Source: Acidobacterium sp. S8 (GTDB lineage: Bacteria; Acidobacteriota; Terriglobia; Terriglobales; Acidobacteriaceae). From it: a stretch of DNA of 64,000 nucleotides. The notes beneath the pieces were generated by a model, which saw only the letters and a program-made list of their open reading frames with translations, had not been told where the DNA came from and ran no database searches. This document shows positions 17,441-55,612 of the stretch, piece by piece; the first letter of the stretch is position 1, and each line of letters begins with the position of its first letter. The stretch is from NCBI RefSeq assembly GCF_009765985.1, contig NZ_LMUM01000006.1:1-64000 (forward strand), in the 5' to 3' direction. A program made the translations under genes and the position numbers.

Positions 17441-18336
17441 TCAACACTCAGATCGTTCTCTCTCAGATATTTCTCCACAAATGGAAGCGCTATATGCGAT
17501 GCTTCTTTACTCGTTACGAATGCTGTGTCCGCTGTCCAACTAAGGCCTGCAAGAGGACGCGTAACTACTCCGAAATCCAAGGGAGCAAGCTGGTCAATCA
17601 GCGCCAACCCGCCTGTCTCCTTAATCATCCATTGCATGTCAGAGGGTGTGGCTGCTGAATTTGCTAGTTCTAGTGAAATTCCCACTTCTGCGAACAGCTC
17701 AATCAATCGGACATGGGCAGAAGGATGCAATTCTGGATCGCGAAAGATTCTGATTCGCGGTGCTGCCTGACGGATGTCTACCTGCGTCTGACAGGCGAGA
17801 TGATCGTCTCTGTGCATACATAGGACGAGCGGAGATTGCGCAACTTGTAATACGTTCCATAGGTCCCTATCTATGGGCATTGGAAGGACGGCGCAATCCA
17901 AAGAACCATGATTCAGTCGCTGCGGCGAATGCGTCGTATGCCCGCTCGAGAGTTGAATTCCGCATTCGGGAAAGAGCGCACCGTAGGCGGCGCGAAAAGC
18001 CTGAAGGAGAAGGGGATTTACAAAAGGGGAGAATCCGAGCTTGAATGGTGGTACATCTCCATTATGAATCGCGAGGGCAGTGATGACGATCTCACGGCGC
18101 TCCGCCAACACTTTTCGGGCCCAGTTAAGAATGAGTTGACCAGCAGGGGTGGGGGAAACTCCATCCCGTCCCCCGCGCACAAAGATCGGAAAACCTATGT
18201 CGTCTTCTAGCGCACGGATTTGTTGACTCACAGCAGGCTGCGAACGAAAGACGCGTTCCGCGCCTTTTGTAAAATTCTTCCCCTCGTGAATTGCTACGAG
18301 GTACTCAAGATGGCGGAAATCCACTGAATCCGACAT
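17326..18336 (-). CDS. LysR-family transcriptional regulator
   Basis: LysR-type regulator: N-terminal winged HTH (FRHLEYLVAIHEGKNFTKGAERVFRSQPAVSQQIRALE, split here as two adjacent motifs FRHLEYLVAIHEG and SQPAVSQQIRALEDD) and a substrate-binding domain from about residue 90. ATG 18336 (MSDSVDF) is preferred; the 21 residues encoded upstream are not family-like. Family similarity ends at about LPFVEKYLREN. The last 35-40 residues (KKHFGNLPTILKLSIGR) are unusual and are encoded on top of the TPR reading frame. This suggests the original 3' end was replaced when the two genes were joined. It is the first gene on the strand leading into the TPR and beta-helix genes and may regulate them. Confidence 0.87.
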   Translation of the reverse strand: MSDSVDFRHLEYLVAIHEGKNFTKGAERVFRSQPAVSQQIRALEDDIGFPIFVRGGRDGVSPTPAGQLILNWARKVLAERREIVITALAIHNGDVPPFKLGFSPFVNPLLLQAFRAAYGALFPECGIQLSSGHTTHSPQRLNHGSLDCAVLPMPIDRDLWNVLQVAQSPLVLCMHRDDHLACQTQVDIRQAAPRIRIFRDPELHPSAHVRLIELFAEVGISLELANSAATPSDMQWMIKETGGLALIDQLAPLDFGVVTRPLAGLSWTADTAFVTSKEASHIALPFVEKYLRENDLSVERKQSHALIGQMIMNAARYRRKKHFGNLPTILKLSIGR

Positions 18337-18922: not shown

Positions 18923-20220
18923 ATGGGTAAATCGCATCAAGCAGGTTGGGTTTCGTTACGCGGGAAGCAGTGGTTCGGCTACTTCCGGCAAACGGTCCTC
19001 GATCCTGAAACCGGCGAGGAGCGAGTCAAGAAAGTTTGCGTCAAGCTCGCCCTCAAAACCAAAATGACCAAGCTCCAGGCGCGTGAAGCGCTGCGAGTAG
19101 AAGTCACCAAACGCACGGGTCAAAACCTTGGAGGGCGTGTCCTCAAGGACAGCTCTGTCACCTTCGAATGGTTTGTGCTCAATCGCTACTTTCCGCTTCG
19201 CAAGGGGACTGGCGGCCAGAAACGGCGAAAGAAAAGATTTCTCAGATTCAGCTCGATCTCGTAAATCGATTCGGAGCGTACCCGCTCGATTCGTTTGACA
19301 AGTTTGCGCTGCAGACACACCTGAACAGTCTTGCGGAGCGATACTCGCAGGACCGAGTGAAGCAGGCGCGCTCCTATCTGAAGTCCATCTTCGACGAAGC
19401 GATCGAGCAGGAATATCTGATGAAGGATCCAAGCCGGAAGCTCAGGATCCCTAAGAACCTCCGGCCTAAGGATAAGCAGGTGCTGAGTTGGGAACAGCTG
19501 TGGCTGATCCTGGCGAACGCAGGCAGACGGGATCGCCTGTTGCTCATGCTCGACATGACGGAGGCGCTTCGCCCCAGCGAGTTGTTCGCGCTGCGATGGA
19601 GATCCTTCGATGACCAGAACACGCTAACCCTGACTGAAACCGTCTATCGCAGGAAACTCAGGTCGTTCGGCAAAACACCCGGCAGTCTCACTAAAGTTCA
19701 CCTGCCGAATGGTCTGGCGGATGAGCTGCTGCGCTGGAAGATGGAATGCAAGAAGGCCTCCTGTGAGAACGGCTCCTGTACGAAGCCGGAGCACCGGAAG
19801 GCGTCTTCGGAGGAGTTTATCTTCCCAAACGCCGACTGCGGATTCATGGATGCGGACAACTACCGTTTTCGGGTTCTGAAGCCGCTGGCGGAGTCATTGG
19901 GTGTCCCGAAGCTGAACTTCCAGGTCATGCGACGGACGATGGCGACGCAGGCGCAGAAGATGGGATCGGTCAAAGACATCCAGGCCCACCTCCGGCATTC
20001 ACGGCCTGATACGACAGCCAACGAATACATGCAGGAGTTGCCAGATAGCGTACAGGCGATGGTCGGATCGGTGTATGCAATGTTGATGAAAGGAGGAGAA
20101 AATCAGTCTTCCGACGATTTGCCACAAAAAGCCGCAAACGCTTCGACCGTCACAGTGCCTAAGTTGTTGAAAGAATTGGTGGGCACAGCAGGATTCGAAC
20201 CTACGACTTCCACCGTGTGA
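18923..20220 (+). pseudogene. tyrosine site-specific integrase, single frameshift, at tRNA-Val
   Basis: Phage-type tyrosine recombinase. The 5' frame (18923 on) gives the N-terminal arm-binding part (VSLRGKQWFGYFRQTVLDPETG and so on) and then runs into garbage after FPLRKG. The second frame resumes at GDWRPETAKEKISQIQ and carries the SAM-like and catalytic domains: box I EALRPSELFALRW, then QVMRRT in place of the usual H-x-x-R, HLRHSRPDTT, and the Tyr in NEYMQ. One base added to the GGGG run at 19204-19207 restores one frame of about 430 residues. The last 13 residues (GTAGFEPTTSTV tail) are encoded by the complement of tRNA-Val. Note the Gln replacing the first catalytic His. Active only if the frameshift is a sequence error. 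Confidence 0.82.
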
Positions 20221-20251
20221 AGGTGGCACTCTACCGCTGAGTTATGCGCCC
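20180..20251 (-). tRNA. tRNA-Val (anticodon CAC)
   Basis: A complete cloverleaf can be drawn on the minus strand: acceptor GGGCGCA/TGTGCCC, D-arm ACTC-GAGT, anticodon stem CCACC/GGTGG with loop TTCACAC (anticodon CAC, reading GUG), and T-arm GTAGG-TTCGAAT-CCTGC. The CCA is not encoded. The 3' half overlaps the end of the integrase frame on the other strand, marking it as an integration target. Confidence 0.93.
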
Positions 20252-44380: not shown

Positions 44381-45235
44381 TCACCACACCACGCGGAACA
44401 TGCGGTCCCAGCGGGCGAAATCTACGATGCTGTTTACAGGGTCCTTATCGTGTCCGAGTCTATCATCCGGCAGGTCGGGAACACTTGTGGTAGATGGCTG
44501 GCGCAGCGAGAAGTAGATGACGAAGGGACGGCCCACGATGTTCTGTTGTGGCACGAAGCCCCAATAGCGACTATCGCGGCTATGGTTGCGGTTGTCGCCC
44601 AGAGCGAAATAGCGGCCGGGCGGGACGATCAGGTCACCGTTCTGGATGTCGTGACGCATTTCCATCCACCAATGGGTGTCGACGCCGGGATCTGTATAGA
44701 GCGTGGTGGGGAACTGGTCGCGAAAGTTGTCAGCGTACGAGGTTTCGTAGGCGGCGTAGGGCTCGTTTAGCTGCTGAGCATTAAGAAAGACAACGCCATC
44801 GTGAAGATGGACCCGGTCGCCGGGAATGGCTACGACGCGCTTGACGACGTGATCGGTTGGATCGAGCGGGAAGTGGAAGACGACGATATCGCCGCGTTTC
44901 ACTGGCTCATAGGGGAGCACCCGTTTCCAGACACCGGCGGGAGCATAGATCATCTTGTTGACGAGGAGGAAGTCGCCGACGAGGAGTGTGTGCTCCATGG
45001 ATTCCGATGGGATGCGAAAGGGCTGCACGATAAAAGTGAGTACGAAGAGGGCAAAGATAATGACTGAAAGCAGCGAGCGAACGGTATCGAGCACCGTGGG
45101 GTAGACAACATGATGCCGGTGAGGCGCGGGTAAAGCTGCAGGACGAATAGCAGCATAGGCAGCCACCGTGGTCTCTGCGACCACGGCGGGAGGGCTGACG
45201 ACCGGGGTGGCAAGCGTCGGCTGAGGTTCACTCAC
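44381..45235 (-). CDS. lepB: signal peptidase I (first copy)
   Basis: Type I signal peptidase of 284 residues with a longer N-terminus than its neighbour. After an Ala/Pro-rich stretch (about 1-50) and one membrane helix (LLSVIIFALFVLTFIVQPF), the catalytic Ser is in IPSESMEHTLLVGD, the Lys in HVVKRVVAIPGDR, and box E reads LGDNRNHSRDSRYWG. The GTG start at 45235 overlaps the rnc stop (GTGAGTGA), a classic translational coupling. The paralogue follows downstream. Confidence 0.95.
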   Translation of the reverse strand: MSEPQPTLATPVVSPPAVVAETTVAAYAAIRPAALPAPHRHHVVYPTVLDTVRSLLSVIIFALFVLTFIVQPFRIPSESMEHTLLVGDFLLVNKMIYAPAGVWKRVLPYEPVKRGDIVVFHFPLDPTDHVVKRVVAIPGDRVHLHDGVVFLNAQQLNEPYAAYETSYADNFRDQFPTTLYTDPGVDTHWWMEMRHDIQNGDLIVPPGRYFALGDNRNHSRDSRYWGFVPQQNIVGRPFVIYFSLRQPSTTSVPDLPDDRLGHDKDPVNSIVDFARWDRMFRVVW

Positions 45236-50545: not shown

Positions 50546-50638
50546 GGAGAGATGGCCGAGTGGCTGAAGGCGGCGGTTTGCTAAACCGTTATAGGGTCAA
50601 AAGCTCTATCGGGGGTTCGAATCCCCCTCTCTCCGCCA
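50546..50638 (+). tRNA. tRNA-Ser (anticodon GCT)
   Basis: Complete class II tRNA: acceptor GGAGAGA/TCTCTCC, anticodon loop TTGCTAA (GCT), a long variable arm (AGGGTCAAAAGCTCT region) and T-arm GGGGGTTCGAATCCCCC, with CCA encoded at 50636-50638. The 3' part is repeated at 52920-52982, showing integration at this gene. Confidence 0.97.
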
Positions 50639-50640
50639 GA
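50578..50640 (+). repeat. attL: tRNA-Ser 3' direct repeat
   Basis: A 63-base stretch starting in the anticodon loop and running two bases past the CCA. It recurs at 52920-52982 with one mismatch (A at 50591, C at 52933). It forms the functional half of tRNA-Ser here and marks the left end of a small integrated element. Confidence 0.9.
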
Positions 50641-50665
50641 TTCCTAAATCTAAATCACTTACAAC

Positions 50666-51208
50666 CTATTGAATTGTTGAGGCACCAAAGACCGACAAGG
50701 GCTCTAGTGTCCCATTAGTGTCCGCTTGAGCTTGCCCTACCGCTGCGATGTGATTCTCTAGCTTTGTCATCGCGCTGCGGACATCTGCTGCGGCTGTCTT
50801 GATGTAGTAGGGTGCCGTTGTGCTTACGTTCGCATGACGAAGAATTCGTTGAATCACCATATCCGACACACCCAGATGGTAGAGATTGCTCCCAAGGCCA
50901 TGCCTGGCTGCGTGCAAGCCATGCCACTCGGGAATGCGGTAGTCCCGCTTGTATTCGTGATCTGCCTTCTGATGAGCTGTCTGAGGGTTCCCGCAATGCC
51001 CGCAGCGGTTCAGTGGTGGGAAGATGAGCCGATTCGTTAGGCTGACGATGGCGAGTGGCTTTCCCTTCGCATTGGCAAAGATCGGGCCAGTTTGAGGATT
51101 ACCGCAGCGAAGCCGATGCATTTCGAGCCCGCAGCATCCCCGGCAAATTCCCCGGTATTTCCGCTCGCCGCTTGCCGTGGAGAAAGATCTGGTACCTGGC
51201 AGATTCAA
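50666..51208 (-). pseudogene. tyrosine integrase, C-terminal fragment
   Basis: Catalytic C-terminal part of a tyrosine recombinase related to the acidobacterial tRNA-Ser integrase type: GPIFANAKGKPLAIVSLTNR, RCGHCGNPQTAHQKADHEYKRD, then WHGLHAARHGLGSNLYHLG (H-x-x-R), ILRHANVSTTAPYYIK (second His and Tyr nucleophile). The N-terminal arm-binding and box I Arg region are missing: the frame starts at TTG 51208 without a proper start or fitting sequence. The fragment lies 28 bases inside attL, the normal position of an integrase next to its target. Confidence 0.85.
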
Positions 51209-51241
51209 CCTCGCCCAGTTGCGACAACACTGGGCGAGGTT
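51207..51241 (-). terminator. hairpin after the island exported-protein gene
   Basis: A 13-bp perfect inverted repeat (AACCTCGCCCAGT at 51207-51219 and its complement at 51229-51241) around a nine-base loop. It sits just past the stop of the exported protein gene. No T-run follows, so terminator function is likely but not certain. It also lies where the integrase fragment breaks. Confidence 0.5.
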
Positions 51242-51280
51242 GAGCCTTAATCTTCCATCTGCCTAGGGAATAACCGACTT

Positions 51281-51880
51281 CTAAAGCGTAACGTCGAACA
51301 CGAAGCTCGAGGTAGATGCATCGCTCGGGAGGTTTTCGATTCCATCGACCTGGAAGGTGGAGCGCGATACTTCTTTCTCTTTGCCGCCAAAGTCGACTGC
51401 CCGTGCCCCAAAGGCGATGACCAGACCTGTGTCAGCTGAAGGGGCACTAGGCAATGACCAGGCAAATGGGATTGTAAAGGTGCAGGTTGCTGTGCCCGCA
51501 CCCGTACGTCTGGCAAAGCCGTTGGCGGTTTCAAGTCCGCCTGCCACCAAGCCGGAATCCGTGTCGAGTTCGCCGCCAACAAACAACGCCGAGCAGTGAT
51601 ATAAAGTACCCGGCCTGAAGTTACTGGCGATCTTGATGTTAATCGTTACATTGACGGTACCAGTGTAGGACGGGGCGCTGGTGCTCGCAATGGGGGTTGC
51701 CTTGTTTTGCGTGCCGGTAGCGCTAATCATGCCGTGTTCGGCGTCGTAGCTAAAAGTCATGCCGGCGGGAGCCTGATTCGTCCGTGTGTGAGGCGGGGCG
51801 GGTATTGCGTTTTGGGCTTGCGCAGTAGTGAGCGATGCCGCACAGAGAGCGAGTGCGAATAACGTTGGGGGAAACCGCAT
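51281..51880 (-). CDS. exported beta-rich protein of unknown function (island cargo)
   Basis: Protein of 199 residues from ATG 51880 (MRFPPTLFALALCAASLTTAQAQ is a clear signal peptide; GGAG lies about nine bases upstream). A longer frame to 51946 adds residues before the signal and is rejected. The mature protein is a single beta-rich domain: TVNVTINIKIASNFRPGTLYHCSALFVGGELD, TCTFTIPFAWSLPS, TGLVIAFGARAVDF, with two Cys residues likely forming a disulphide. I do not recognise the family. It is the only clearly intact, secreted cargo of the tRNA-Ser element. Confidence 0.75.
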   Translation of the reverse strand: MRFPPTLFALALCAASLTTAQAQNAIPAPPHTRTNQAPAGMTFSYDAEHGMISATGTQNKATPIASTSAPSYTGTVNVTINIKIASNFRPGTLYHCSALFVGGELDTDSGLVAGGLETANGFARRTGAGTATCTFTIPFAWSLPSAPSADTGLVIAFGARAVDFGGKEKEVSRSTFQVDGIENLPSDASTSSFVFDVTL

Positions 51881-52307
51881 TTTTAGACTCCGTTTCTCTA
51901 GGGGGATTTGGCCAGCCCGCTGCCAGCCAGAAAACGAGCGTTCCATACAGTCGGAAATTTAGCAATCATTTATCGGGCCAATTGCGATTCGAGATTGACT
52001 ACATTGAAATGGCTTTCTGCAAAATCCGCGCGTCCTAAAGCTCCTCGGAATCTAAGTGGATTTACCTCAGTTCCTTCGAAACATCGGTCGATGGCATGCT
52101 TTGCAACGCCAAGGATACCCTCCCTGCTCCCTAACTACATCAGAAGATCATTCGGAAGTATCTGCGCCGCTGATCAACCCCTCAATCGTTTCCGGGTCAC
52201 ATCGGCGGCCTGGGGATGGTGCTGATGATCTGGGTTAGACATTGCCCGTCCATATTCGCCTCGATAGACTGGCGAGCCTTTCATAGGCTAGATCAGTGTG
52301 ATATTTC
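51881..52307. other. island intergenic region, no supported gene
   Basis: About 425 bases between two divergent cargo genes. It should hold their promoters. Short frames exist on both strands, but none has a domain I recognise. A minus-strand frame at 52235-52453 overlaps the primase-like gene and is treated as its shadow. Confidence 0.3.
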
Positions 52308-52691
52308 ATGGTCTCCAGCACAATCCGTTCATCGGTCGAGTTGGCCCATCTTGTGGGAGGCGGCCAAGCACAGATTCCGATGATGGATTTCATGTGCTCT
52401 CCGTCACCGCGAAACAAGGAGCGGCTTACGCGTCTTCTGCAGAGCCTTTGCATGGGAAAAGGATTCCTTTTGGAGTCGGGAAGGTCTTATCACTACTACG
52501 GTACGCGGATTTTTGCAGAAGTTGAATGGAGAGCTTTCCTAGGCAAATGTCTTCTGATGTCAGGTTGTGCCGATGAAAGGTACATCGGGCACCAACTGGT
52601 CAATGGATTTTGCGTGCTCCGGCTTTCATCAGGAAGGATCAAGAATCGAGTGCCGACTATAGTTGCGGAAATTTCTGCTGCGGAAAATTGA
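52308..52691 (+). CDS. primase-like orphan protein (island cargo)
   Basis: Protein of 127 residues. The recognisable part is QIPMMDFMCSPS, then FLLESGRSYHYYGTRIF, EVEWRAFLGKCLLMSG, DERYIGHQLVNGFCVLRLSSG and RVPTIVAEIS. The pattern of SGRSYH-Y-G, E-W-x-x-FLG and D-x-R-Y-I-G-H resembles small primase-type catalytic domains found as orphans in some genomes, but I could not confirm this by a search. The frame opens three codons before ATG 52308 after a TGA, so the N-terminus may be truncated relative to relatives. No helicase or other replication gene accompanies it in the element. Confidence 0.55.
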   Translation: MVSSTIRSSVELAHLVGGGQAQIPMMDFMCSPSPRNKERLTRLLQSLCMGKGFLLESGRSYHYYGTRIFAEVEWRAFLGKCLLMSGCADERYIGHQLVNGFCVLRLSSGRIKNRVPTIVAEISAAEN

Positions 52692-52919
52692 CAACCAGTC
52701 TCCTGATCGAACCGTCGCCGTCCTTTAATTCCAGTGCGGGAAAGGTCGGGCGGTAGAGAAAAAGAGGCTCGAGGGGCGAGGACGAGAGCGACAGCAACCA
52801 TTTCGAGTGTCCCGAGCGATGTCCTGTAACTGACGATTGAGGTCGCATTGGCTGCCCTCACGGGGGCCAGCACGACTGTAAGCGGTTGAAATCATGTAAG
52901 GACAGCGAGAGAAAGAGAA
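52692..52919. other. island right-flank non-coding region
   Basis: Between the primase-like gene and attR. A minus-strand open frame covers it but matches nothing and overlaps the cargo gene. Nothing else is supported. Confidence 0.3.
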
Positions 52920-52982
52920 TTGCTAAACCGTTCTAGGGTCAAAAGCTCTATCGGGGGTTCGAATCCCCCTCTCTCCGCCAGA
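52920..52982 (+). repeat. attR: second copy of the tRNA-Ser 3' repeat
   Basis: 63 bases identical to 50578-50640 except one position (C at 52933). It contains the variable arm, T-arm, acceptor 3' strand and CCA but no 5' half, so it is not a functional tRNA. It marks the right end of the element. Confidence 0.9.
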
Positions 52983-53647: not shown

Positions 53648-55612
53648 CTAAGAGCGGGCGGCCCAGAAGGCTTCGGGGATAGTCTCACAGGGCGGGGCGG
53701 ACTGTACGGCCTGGGCGAGGCTCACGACCACGGCGTCGGGGCGAACCATGCTGAATCGCTCATGCAGTATGTCGCTGTCTTCGCTGGTTCCCCATAAACC
53801 AATGAGAATACGGTTGTCTGGGAGACGCTCGCGGATACGAGAAGTGAGCTCACGAGCGTGTACGAATGCAAATGGCGGGAGTGCTGAAATGCAGATCGTC
53901 GTAGAAGGTTCTTCTGCCAGGCGGTCAAGAACTTCCGGCGTAAGCGTCGAGGAATGGAGGACTATGGTCTTGTGTCCACGATGCTCCAGGAGCTGGGCGA
54001 GCATGGTGGCAGCAATTTCATCGGCCTGATCGCTTGAAGAAATGCAAACGACCGGGCAGATCTTGTGAGTATCGAGGCTGCCTTCTGATGCCTCCTCGGA
54101 TGAGGTCTCAGACGAGGGCGAACGGTATGAGCTGAGTTCAGCGATTAATTCCGTTGCGCTCTGGAAGAGAAACGCGGTTCGGGATTCATCGAGAAAGCCC
54201 TTGTGACGATCTTGTTCGGCAAGGGCAAGCGCAGGGAGAACAACATCATCGTAGAGAGCGACGAGCTTGTGATCTTCAAGGAAGTGATCGGCAATGCGCC
54301 GGGCTTCGGTTTGATCCAACGCAAGGAGGCGCTCATAAAAATGTGCTTCCGGTGTAAGTTGGGCCTCGTCGCCCAGGAGAATGTGCAGGAAGGACATCTG
54401 TGGCACATAGCGCCCCATGACGATGAGGCAGACGGTGAGGGGGGTGGAGAGGATCAATCCTGGAATGCCCCATAGAAGCGTCCACACCATTGCGGTTGTT
54501 ACTAGCGCGAGCGCTGATATGCCGGTATGGCTTCCGTATAACCAGGGCTCAATGAAGTTGCTTACAGCTATCTCCAGAACAACAAACAAGAGCAGTACAA
54601 AAAAGGGCGGCCACCAGCCGGGGAAGACGGCAAAGGCAAAGCCGATGGGAAGCGCTCCGCCGATAGCCATGCCCGCGTAGGGCACCATGCGAAGGAGGCC
54701 CAGTATGACTCCCCATAAAGTCGCGTTGGGAACGTGCAGCAGAAACAGGCCCACGCCGAAGACAAGTCCGTAGCTCGCGTTGATGAGCACGTTCATGAGC
54801 AGATATTTGCTGACGCGGCGGGCGGCATCATTCAGAGCCTGCGTCATAACATTCAGGCGACCCATGCCGGCAAGCAACAAAAGCCGGTTGCGCAGGTCTT
54901 CGCGCTTGATGAGCATATAAATGGTGAAGACAATGACCATTCCAAGCATGCCAAGCGGCTTGAGGATTGGTCTTAGCAGCTGTTGCGCATAAGCCCTGTT
55001 GCTGATGGGTGGTTGTACGAGAATGACGGGAGCGGGATTCGGATTCGTCTGCTCTTTCTGCCGTTCCAACTCGCGCTCACGACGCGTGAGCGACTTGCCT
55101 GATTCCGGCGTGGGAAGGGGCTGAGGCGCGGGTGTTCCGGAGAGATCCTGAGCCAAAATTTTGACTCCCCGAAGCGCATTGCCGAGCGGGCCCGTAGTGG
55201 GTGCGTGGATAGTAGCGAGTTTTTCGTCGATATTCTGTTGATAGCTGGGCAGATCGCTGGCCACATCGATCAATTGGCGCGCTACAACCCAACCAACTAT
55301 AAGCAGGAATGAAGTAGCCAGTAATACGACCAGCACGACCGAGGGTACGCGCGGTACGCGCAGGCGCTCCAGCTGAATGACAGCAGGGGCCAGCAGGAAG
55401 TTAAGCGTGAGGGCCATCGCAAACGGGATGAATAAATCCCGAGCGAAATAAAGAGTCAGGAGAACCAGACCCAATACCAGAATCGGCTCGTTGCTGAGCC
55501 ATCCTCGTCTGTTCTTACTGACACTGCCAGTGCTGAGATCGAAGCCGTTCAAATGCTGATGCCTTGCATGTAGATTGTTGGACCAGGTTGCGGCTGGAGT
55601 ATAGCGCAACAC
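53648..55612 (-). CDS. AI-2E family transporter fused to a C-terminal cobalamin-binding-like domain
   Basis: Protein of 654 residues. The N-terminal 400 residues are an AI-2E/PerM transporter with about eight membrane helices (WLSNEPILVLGLVLLTLYF, FIPFAMALTLNFLLAPAVIQLERLRVPR, VPYAGMAIGGALPIGFAFAVFPGWW, ILSTPLTVCLIVMGRYV, with the usual PxxE-like FIEPWLYG). The C-terminal 200 residues include a helical stretch and then a Rossmann-like block CPVVCISSSDQADEIAATMLAQLLEHRGHKTIVLHSS, ICISALPPFAFVHARELTSRIRE and RILIGLWG, resembling the fold of B12-binding domains but without the His ligand motif. The start is GTG 55612. The role of the sensor-like tail is unknown; it is cytoplasmic by topology. 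Confidence 0.88.
   Translation of the reverse strand: MLRYTPAATWSNNLHARHQHLNGFDLSTGSVSKNRRGWLSNEPILVLGLVLLTLYFARDLFIPFAMALTLNFLLAPAVIQLERLRVPRVPSVVLVVLLATSFLLIVGWVVARQLIDVASDLPSYQQNIDEKLATIHAPTTGPLGNALRGVKILAQDLSGTPAPQPLPTPESGKSLTRRERELERQKEQTNPNPAPVILVQPPISNRAYAQQLLRPILKPLGMLGMVIVFTIYMLIKREDLRNRLLLLAGMGRLNVMTQALNDAARRVSKYLLMNVLINASYGLVFGVGLFLLHVPNATLWGVILGLLRMVPYAGMAIGGALPIGFAFAVFPGWWPPFFVLLLFVVLEIAVSNFIEPWLYGSHTGISALALVTTAMVWTLLWGIPGLILSTPLTVCLIVMGRYVPQMSFLHILLGDEAQLTPEAHFYERLLALDQTEARRIADHFLEDHKLVALYDDVVLPALALAEQDRHKGFLDESRTAFLFQSATELIAELSSYRSPSSETSSEEASEGSLDTHKICPVVCISSSDQADEIAATMLAQLLEHRGHKTIVLHSSTLTPEVLDRLAEEPSTTICISALPPFAFVHARELTSRIRERLPDNRILIGLWGTSEDSDILHERFSMVRPDAVVVSLAQAVQSAPPCETIPEAFWAARS

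Follow-up and report, generated by a model that had tools for sequence, protein, structure and literature searches.

A Small, Probably Decayed Mosaic Integrative Element Keeps Both Attachment Sites in a tRNA-Ser(GCT) Gene of Acidobacterium sp. S8

Is an insert of little more than 2 kb, flanked by nearly perfect copies of a tRNA 3' half and holding a broken integrase, still a mobile unit, or is it what remains of one? The question is raised by a tRNA-Ser(GCT) gene of Acidobacterium sp. S8 and the DNA behind it, in the first 64,000 nucleotides of contig NZ_LMUM01000006.1 (assembly GCF_009765985.1), a stretch that was analyzed as a whole and is referred to here as the window. An earlier note, made from the letters alone, had described an island at this position and had offered two accounts of its small size, a satellite-like unit or a deletion remnant. 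The island reading and the second of these accounts are supported by the att pair, the proposed arm sites, the truncated integrase, and the patchwork interior (Table 1). We consider it highly likely that the insert is an integrative element at tRNA-Ser(GCT) that deletion and recombination have reduced to a mosaic, of the kind of a cis-mobilizable element (CIME), which the sections of PMC5704250 used here define as a decay product of an ICE or an IME.

TABLE 1. Target gene, attachment sites, and interior features of the insert (positions in the window)
Feature	Position	Strand	Basis
tRNA-Ser(GCT) gene, integration target restored by the element	50546..50638	+	ARAGORN; joined flanks
attL core, tRNA 3' half, anticodon loop to end	50578..50640	+	direct repeat
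Left proposed arm-type repeat pair GTGTCC-N5-GTGTCC	50707..50723	+	pairs in relatives' left ends
Tyrosine integrase remnant, C-terminal 153 aa	50666..51127	-	PF00589 2e-7; alignment to relatives
Block common to congener G002, 96% nucleotide identity	51128..52086	.	other location, beside IS-like ORFs
Exported-protein gene, 199 aa from ATG 51880	51281..51880	-	signal-peptide-like start by eye
88-nt stretch resembling part of a small gene (81% identity)	52258..52345	-	three other genomes
ORF, C-terminal half of a PF24387 (AEP-like) protein	52308..52691	+	PF24387 2.6e-25
Right-end module, 112 nt	52807..52918	+	conserved in other genomes, profile
Proposed right arm repeats GTGTCC-N6-ATGTCC	113 and 101 nt before core		within 52807..52918
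CGACTGTAAG box	47 nt before attR core		within 52807..52918
attR core, tRNA-Ser 3' half (proposed to be displaced), 62/63	52920..52982	+	direct repeat

RESULTS

The Repeat Is an Attachment Pair at a tRNA Gene

The 63-bp direct repeat of the tRNA-Ser 3' half that had been claimed at this locus is confirmed; its copies lie at an offset of 2,342 bp and are identical at 62 of 63 positions, the sole mismatch being A50591 against C52933. When the left flank is joined to the right copy, an intact tRNA-Ser(GCT) results, and because the joined flanks restore the gene in this way we read the repeat as an attL/attR pair. By the workings of tRNA islands set out in the cited sections of the Islander paper (PMC4383910), the element would have brought the left copy and displaced the original 3' half, which is now the right copy. 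In the host assembly (5.44 Mb, 99.99% complete), matches to the repeat at E 0.001 or better comprise the two att copies and the genes for tRNA-Ser GGA, CGA, and TGA.

The tRNA-Ser(GCT) loci of 48 of 60 relatives were fetched, the 12 weakest matches being left out. None of the 48 holds a second copy of at least 60 nt in the downstream stretch fetched, which reaches at least 5 kb in 38 of them, and the repeat in the window is thus more than chance. Partial tRNA pieces of 27–42 nt occur at four of the 48 loci, and an integrase of the window's family lies on the 3' side at four (G004, G009, G031, and G035). Farther copies were seen in G035 (two half copies 48 kb off) and in G008 (one on another contig, 62 nt, 89%).

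An empty-site allele was also sought by synteny, and this approach was set aside, the left flank matching congeners G001 and G003 and not G002, and the right flank being rearranged relative to all three; the AI-2E gene of the right flank is located elsewhere in each of them. The empty site is one that we would reconstruct from the tRNA alone. In the AI-2E type transporter itself (window 53648-55612, minus strand) a C-terminal stretch weakly resembles a B12-binding domain (24.7 bits, cut-off 32.1).

Instead of integration, local duplication of a segment at the tRNA end might have produced the second 63-nt copy, and congener G002 provides an example of such a process: a decayed 42-nt second tRNA piece (86%) sits 291 bp downstream of its tRNA-Ser(GCT). 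An insert-free relative that keeps the second 63-bp copy had been named in advance as an argument against an island; the G002 piece is a weak instance of it, but one that belongs to a local tandem duplication (L125 333-771) in which about 100 bp of non-tRNA flank are included, and G002 has no match to the right-end pattern described below. The repeat in the window, in contrast, stops at the tRNA end, and its right copy is preceded by a module that is conserved before seven other tRNA-Ser(GCT) half copies. A segmental duplication is in our judgment extremely improbable.

A Conserved Module Precedes the Right Core

The module was recognized by comparing right ends, where the stretch common to the window and G251 scores 33 against a maximum of 28 in 1000 shuffles. 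Five right ends were compared. Four of them (window, G251, G268, and G133) have CGACTGTAAG exactly 47 nt ahead of the core, and three (window, G251, and G268) have a GTGTCC-like pair whose repeats precede the core by 113 and 101 nt; G133 shows no such pair, and G031 neither the pair nor the box. The more distant G035 element carries right ends with a different repeat word and without a box of the CGACTGTAAG type.

A search pattern containing no tRNA letters, whose design drew in part on the right end of the window (G251 and G268 were originally found through their integrases), gave eight matches in the 398 sampled family genomes, the window included, and the reversed control gave none in 398. 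All eight, seven besides the window, run into the 3' half of a tRNA-Ser(GCT) gene. The distance from box to core is 47 nt in all eight, that from the first arm repeat to the core is 113 nt in seven and 114 nt in one, and letters between the pattern positions are conserved as well. A profile built from six of the seven other right ends (the seventh, with a one-base insertion, was dropped) scores the window site at 59 bits and the runner-up in the 64 kb, on either strand, at -27, a result that is not fully independent as the pattern was partly designed on the window. Taken without its surroundings, the N6 form of the repeat pair with one mismatch allowed has one match in the window where 0.17 are expected, and 16 of 100 shuffles had one. 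In viral contigs the right-end 16-mer has 22 matches; no tRNA half follows any of them within 120 nt, and they were taken as chance.

On the left, relatives carry repeat pairs with the same 11-nt period, close relatives sharing the GTGTCC-N5-GTGTCC form that is present in the window. With one mismatch allowed this form has two matches in the window where 0.21 are expected, the second at 44439 and away from the element. By themselves, repeat-pair patterns derived from relatives are weak evidence. The consensus of the box at the relatives' left ends is not matched in the window when up to three mismatches are allowed. An inverted box shared by left and right ends, perfect in G251 (17/17), scores 15 in the window, which is below the 95% shuffle level of 21 and not significant. 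By eye, the layout is the same for more distant integrases, whose repeat words differ (GGTGTCA, GGTGCAT, GGAGCAC, GTTGCAC). We suggest that the conserved repeat pairs beside both cores are putative arm-type integrase sites. In G021 (L136 19498-19514) tRNA-Ser(GCT) is immediately followed by the family's left-end box, with one mismatch, and the box side has no integrase; this perhaps marks an even more decayed remnant.

The Integrase Is a C-terminal Stump

Homology to full-length relatives (419–433 aa) covers the last ~153 residues of the integrase and ends at 51127, while the open frame (50666-51208) continues past this point into the next block. The N-terminal half had been reported lost; the damage is in fact larger, about 275 of 430 residues or the front two thirds being gone. 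With 153 of about 430 aa remaining, the insert contains no intact tyrosine integrase. The remnant keeps HxxR and Tyr and lacks the box I Arg and the N-terminal domains. Loss of the N-terminal two thirds would be expected to abolish activity.

Nor was a cognate integrase found in the host, where one assembly was searched: the one further match to the fragment (35% over 60 aa) lies beside tRNA-Ala, out of 28 PF00589 matches in all. Because the integrase is without its box I Arg and N-terminal domains and no cognate enzyme was found in the host, the element is probably immobile at present; excision could follow if a related integrase arrived. From the well kept repeats it had been concluded that the element is either recent or mobilized in trans. 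This alternative does not follow: near-identical repeats are to be expected for a while in any case, one of the two belonging to a functional tRNA gene and the other departing from it at 1 of 63 positions, and no resident helper was found in the host.

Relatives of the Integrase Favor tRNA Genes

Integrase relatives at E 1e-12 or better are present in 66 of the 398 sampled family genomes, the window's own included. At 23 of the best 30 loci, again counting the window, a tRNA gene lies ~130 bp or less from the matched end, the tRNAs being Ser(GCT), Ser(TGA), Arg(CCT), Arg(TCT), Lys, Met, and Thr. The other seven have no whole tRNA within 1.5 kb and include two of the closest full-length relatives (G283 and G268). 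Full-length relatives are 60–76% identical and mostly beside tRNA genes, and those that the earlier note had proposed to look for exist at tRNA-Ser(GCT) itself, in L185 (76%, 431 aa) and G251 (426 aa).

Named genomes were scanned as well, and the titles of the 49 loci obtained are Acidobacteria, Acidobacteriaceae, Terriglobia, or Candidatus Sulfotelmatobacter, Korobacter, or Acidiferrum, these three candidates being Acidobacteria. In 10 of the 49 the C terminus of the integrase faces the 3' end of tRNA-Ser(GCT); five of these integrases are full-length (399–454 aa stop to stop, with L199 starting at a contig edge) and five are cut or broken, a count that excludes L227, where integrase pieces lie on both sides of the tRNA. 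At four further loci (L192, L195, L196, and L202) a tRNA-Arg(CCT) gene stands between convergent integrases of the same family.

The Interior Is a Patchwork

The homology of the integrase stops exactly one base before the start of the block shared with G002. In that congener the block lies on contig C193 and adjoins IS30-like transposase ORFs (named by eye). Its identity of 96% is to be compared with only 71% at the nucleotide level for the AI-2E gene of the two genomes, and the block has therefore probably moved between species.

The exported-protein gene inside the block (221 aa if started at the first ATG, 51946) is patchy, occurring in 11 of the 250 family genomes sampled, its own included, and none of five homologue contexts holds an integrase of the window's family. 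The window and G002 copies differ by 5 synonymous and 14 nonsynonymous changes (dN/dS 0.93), so that the gene looks nearly neutral, with no sign of constraint on this small count of 19 changes. The 199-codon frame is nevertheless open in both genomes, as would be the case if the gene were a domesticated host gene that holds the remnant in place, an idea that is compatible with our main reading. Its rarity and the absence of any sign of constraint on these few changes speak against domestication, which we regard as highly unlikely.

The second ORF of the insert had been called a primase-like orphan. An AEP-like match (PF24387) is indeed present, but the gene is not complete: homology begins about 52350, full-length relatives have 246–258 aa, and the window retains the C-terminal part. 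Of the two cargo genes that had been counted, one is thus entire (the exported protein) and the other has lost its first half. PF24387 is found in 3 of 398 sampled family genomes, its own included, and with the patchiness of the exported-protein gene this contradicts the view, raised as a possible objection to an island, that the cargo might be fixed chromosomal genes. The contexts of two full-length AEP homologues contain no integrase of the window's family. Searches with the AEP protein gave no relative in viral contigs, a best E of 0.89 to an unrelated protein among PDB sequences, and two weak matches (about 31% identity) among plasmids. In G357 (L122 1099-2710) a full-length PF24387 gene overlaps the beginning of an ORF of the Mom family (PF25680), which hints at the context of this orphan family.

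When the five ORFs of the insert were compared with PHROGs, the integrase alone fell below E 0.3, and no packaging or phage-hijacking gene was detected; none of the insert ORFs scanned is a transfer gene. The small gene that the 88-nt fragment matches in part has weak PHROGs matches, a terminase small subunit (E 0.01–0.08) among them. The 10 ORFs around it in two genomes include an integrase and a helicase and no packaging gene, and the terminase reading was rejected. The interior is thus a patchwork in which two genes, the integrase and PF24387, have lost their fronts. The satellite-like unit suggested earlier finds no backing in these data: the integrase is the one clear PHROGs match, one cargo ORF is truncated, and the other shows no sign of purifying selection.

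Is the Insert a Small Unit Moved in trans?

Eight elements at tRNA-Ser(GCT) have two copies of the half gene, spanning 1.6–48 kb: G251 (1,646 bp, cores 64/64), the window (2,342 bp), G229 (7.6 kb), G031 (about 12.2 kb, right copy of 26 nt only), G268 (15.2 kb), G429 (16.4 kb, second copy only 78% to the query), G239 (36.1 kb), and G035 (48 kb). The window's element is the second smallest in this list, from which G426 (second copy on another contig) and G133 (half copy alone, before the integrase) are omitted. The G251 element (L173 8341-10050, same contig as L190) has both repeat pairs, and its 426-aa integrase takes up 1,278 of 1,582 interior bp; it is possibly a minimal autonomous unit.

In an alternative account, the insert is a live, non-autonomous, satellite-like mini-element that carries the exported-protein gene and is moved in trans by full-length integrases of its subfamily, encountered at other times or in other hosts, which would explain why the att arms were kept. 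Both cores and the proposed arms do look intact while the integrase is not, the G251 element shows that little besides an integrase can stand between perfect att copies, relatives of the integrase are common in the family, and the exported block has probably moved between species. However, no cognate integrase was found in the host, the interior consists of broken genes with a cargo that looks neutral, and the contig with the G002 block carries neither an integrase of the family nor a tRNA half. Moreover, in the 398 family genomes, with two candidates scored in each, no match to the whole unit was found, the longest other match being the 959-nt G002 block. We consider the mini-element unlikely and retain the reduced mosaic as the better account. 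The wider proposition, that the acidobacterial tRNA-Ser integrase family forms units of 1.6–2.4 kb with complete att cores and arms that are moved in trans, appears unlikely to us; if true, such units would be the tyrosine-integrase counterpart of non-autonomous miniature transposons.

DISCUSSION

In the course of events that we favor, an ancestor with a full-length tyrosine integrase would have entered the anticodon-loop half of the tRNA gene. As the att pair and the conserved ends suggest, this insertion would have replaced the tRNA 3' half and pushed the original 3' half rightward. Foreign gene pieces and deletions would later have replaced the interior at the breakpoints seen in the window, in an order that we infer, and the deletions would have taken the front two thirds of the integrase along with the front half of the PF24387 gene, while both attachment sites with their proposed arm sites stayed.

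This outcome resembles the CIMEs of PMC5704250, which in the sections used here likewise arise by decay of an integrated element, with integration genes lost or broken and attL and attR kept. The window's element differs in that it keeps a C-terminal integrase stump, is only 2.3 kb long, and reveals no transfer-gene ancestor. The label would fit only if the ancestor was an ICE or an IME, and we call the element CIME-like. With the tRNA and tmRNA islands of Islander (PMC4383910, in the sections cited) it shares a tyrosine integrase, a regenerated tRNA with a displaced 3' fragment, and a crossover of the anticodon-loop type; unlike these, its integrase is truncated and its size lies far below their peaks at 13.6 and 39.9 kbp. 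The ssrA islands of Dehalococcoides, as presented in the parts of PMC3146451 consulted, likewise make up an island family that targets a single RNA gene and has a common motif at the repeats, and some are without an integration module and possibly cis-mobilizable; they use a serine recombinase and a tmRNA gene, unlike the element studied here.

Decayed islands in tRNA genes are common, and the window's element is therefore ordinary in kind. What appears new here, as far as sequence comparison can tell, is that both proposed integrase-binding arms survive. From its ends one can read where an acidobacterial tRNA-Ser(GCT) integrase family integrates, its proposed arm sites, and its 1.6–48 kb size range; among the papers listed by a search, judged by titles and abstract openings, none had a title dedicated to such a family. 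An acidobacterial genome paper (PMC3174227) describes, in the portions cited and in general terms, numerous phage integrase genes as well as candidate islands close to tRNA genes; those portions report no attachment sites. The two smallest members offer a simple system for asking whether an integrase stump flanked by intact att sites marks a dead element or one still moved in trans, and the intact ends make trans mobilization of the window's element testable.

Other tRNA genes of this host also have integrases beside them. The gene for tRNA-Ser CGA (G000:C7, near 17490-17891) is adjoined by a stop-ridden integrase piece, and that for tRNA-Ser TGA (G000:C2, near 83674-84536) by an integrase with a 392-aa open frame. 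In the window itself, an integrase ORF (PF00589) at 19168-20220 on the plus strand reaches into the 3' end of tRNA-Val(CAC) (20177-20251, minus strand) and is perhaps part of a second tRNA-targeting element.
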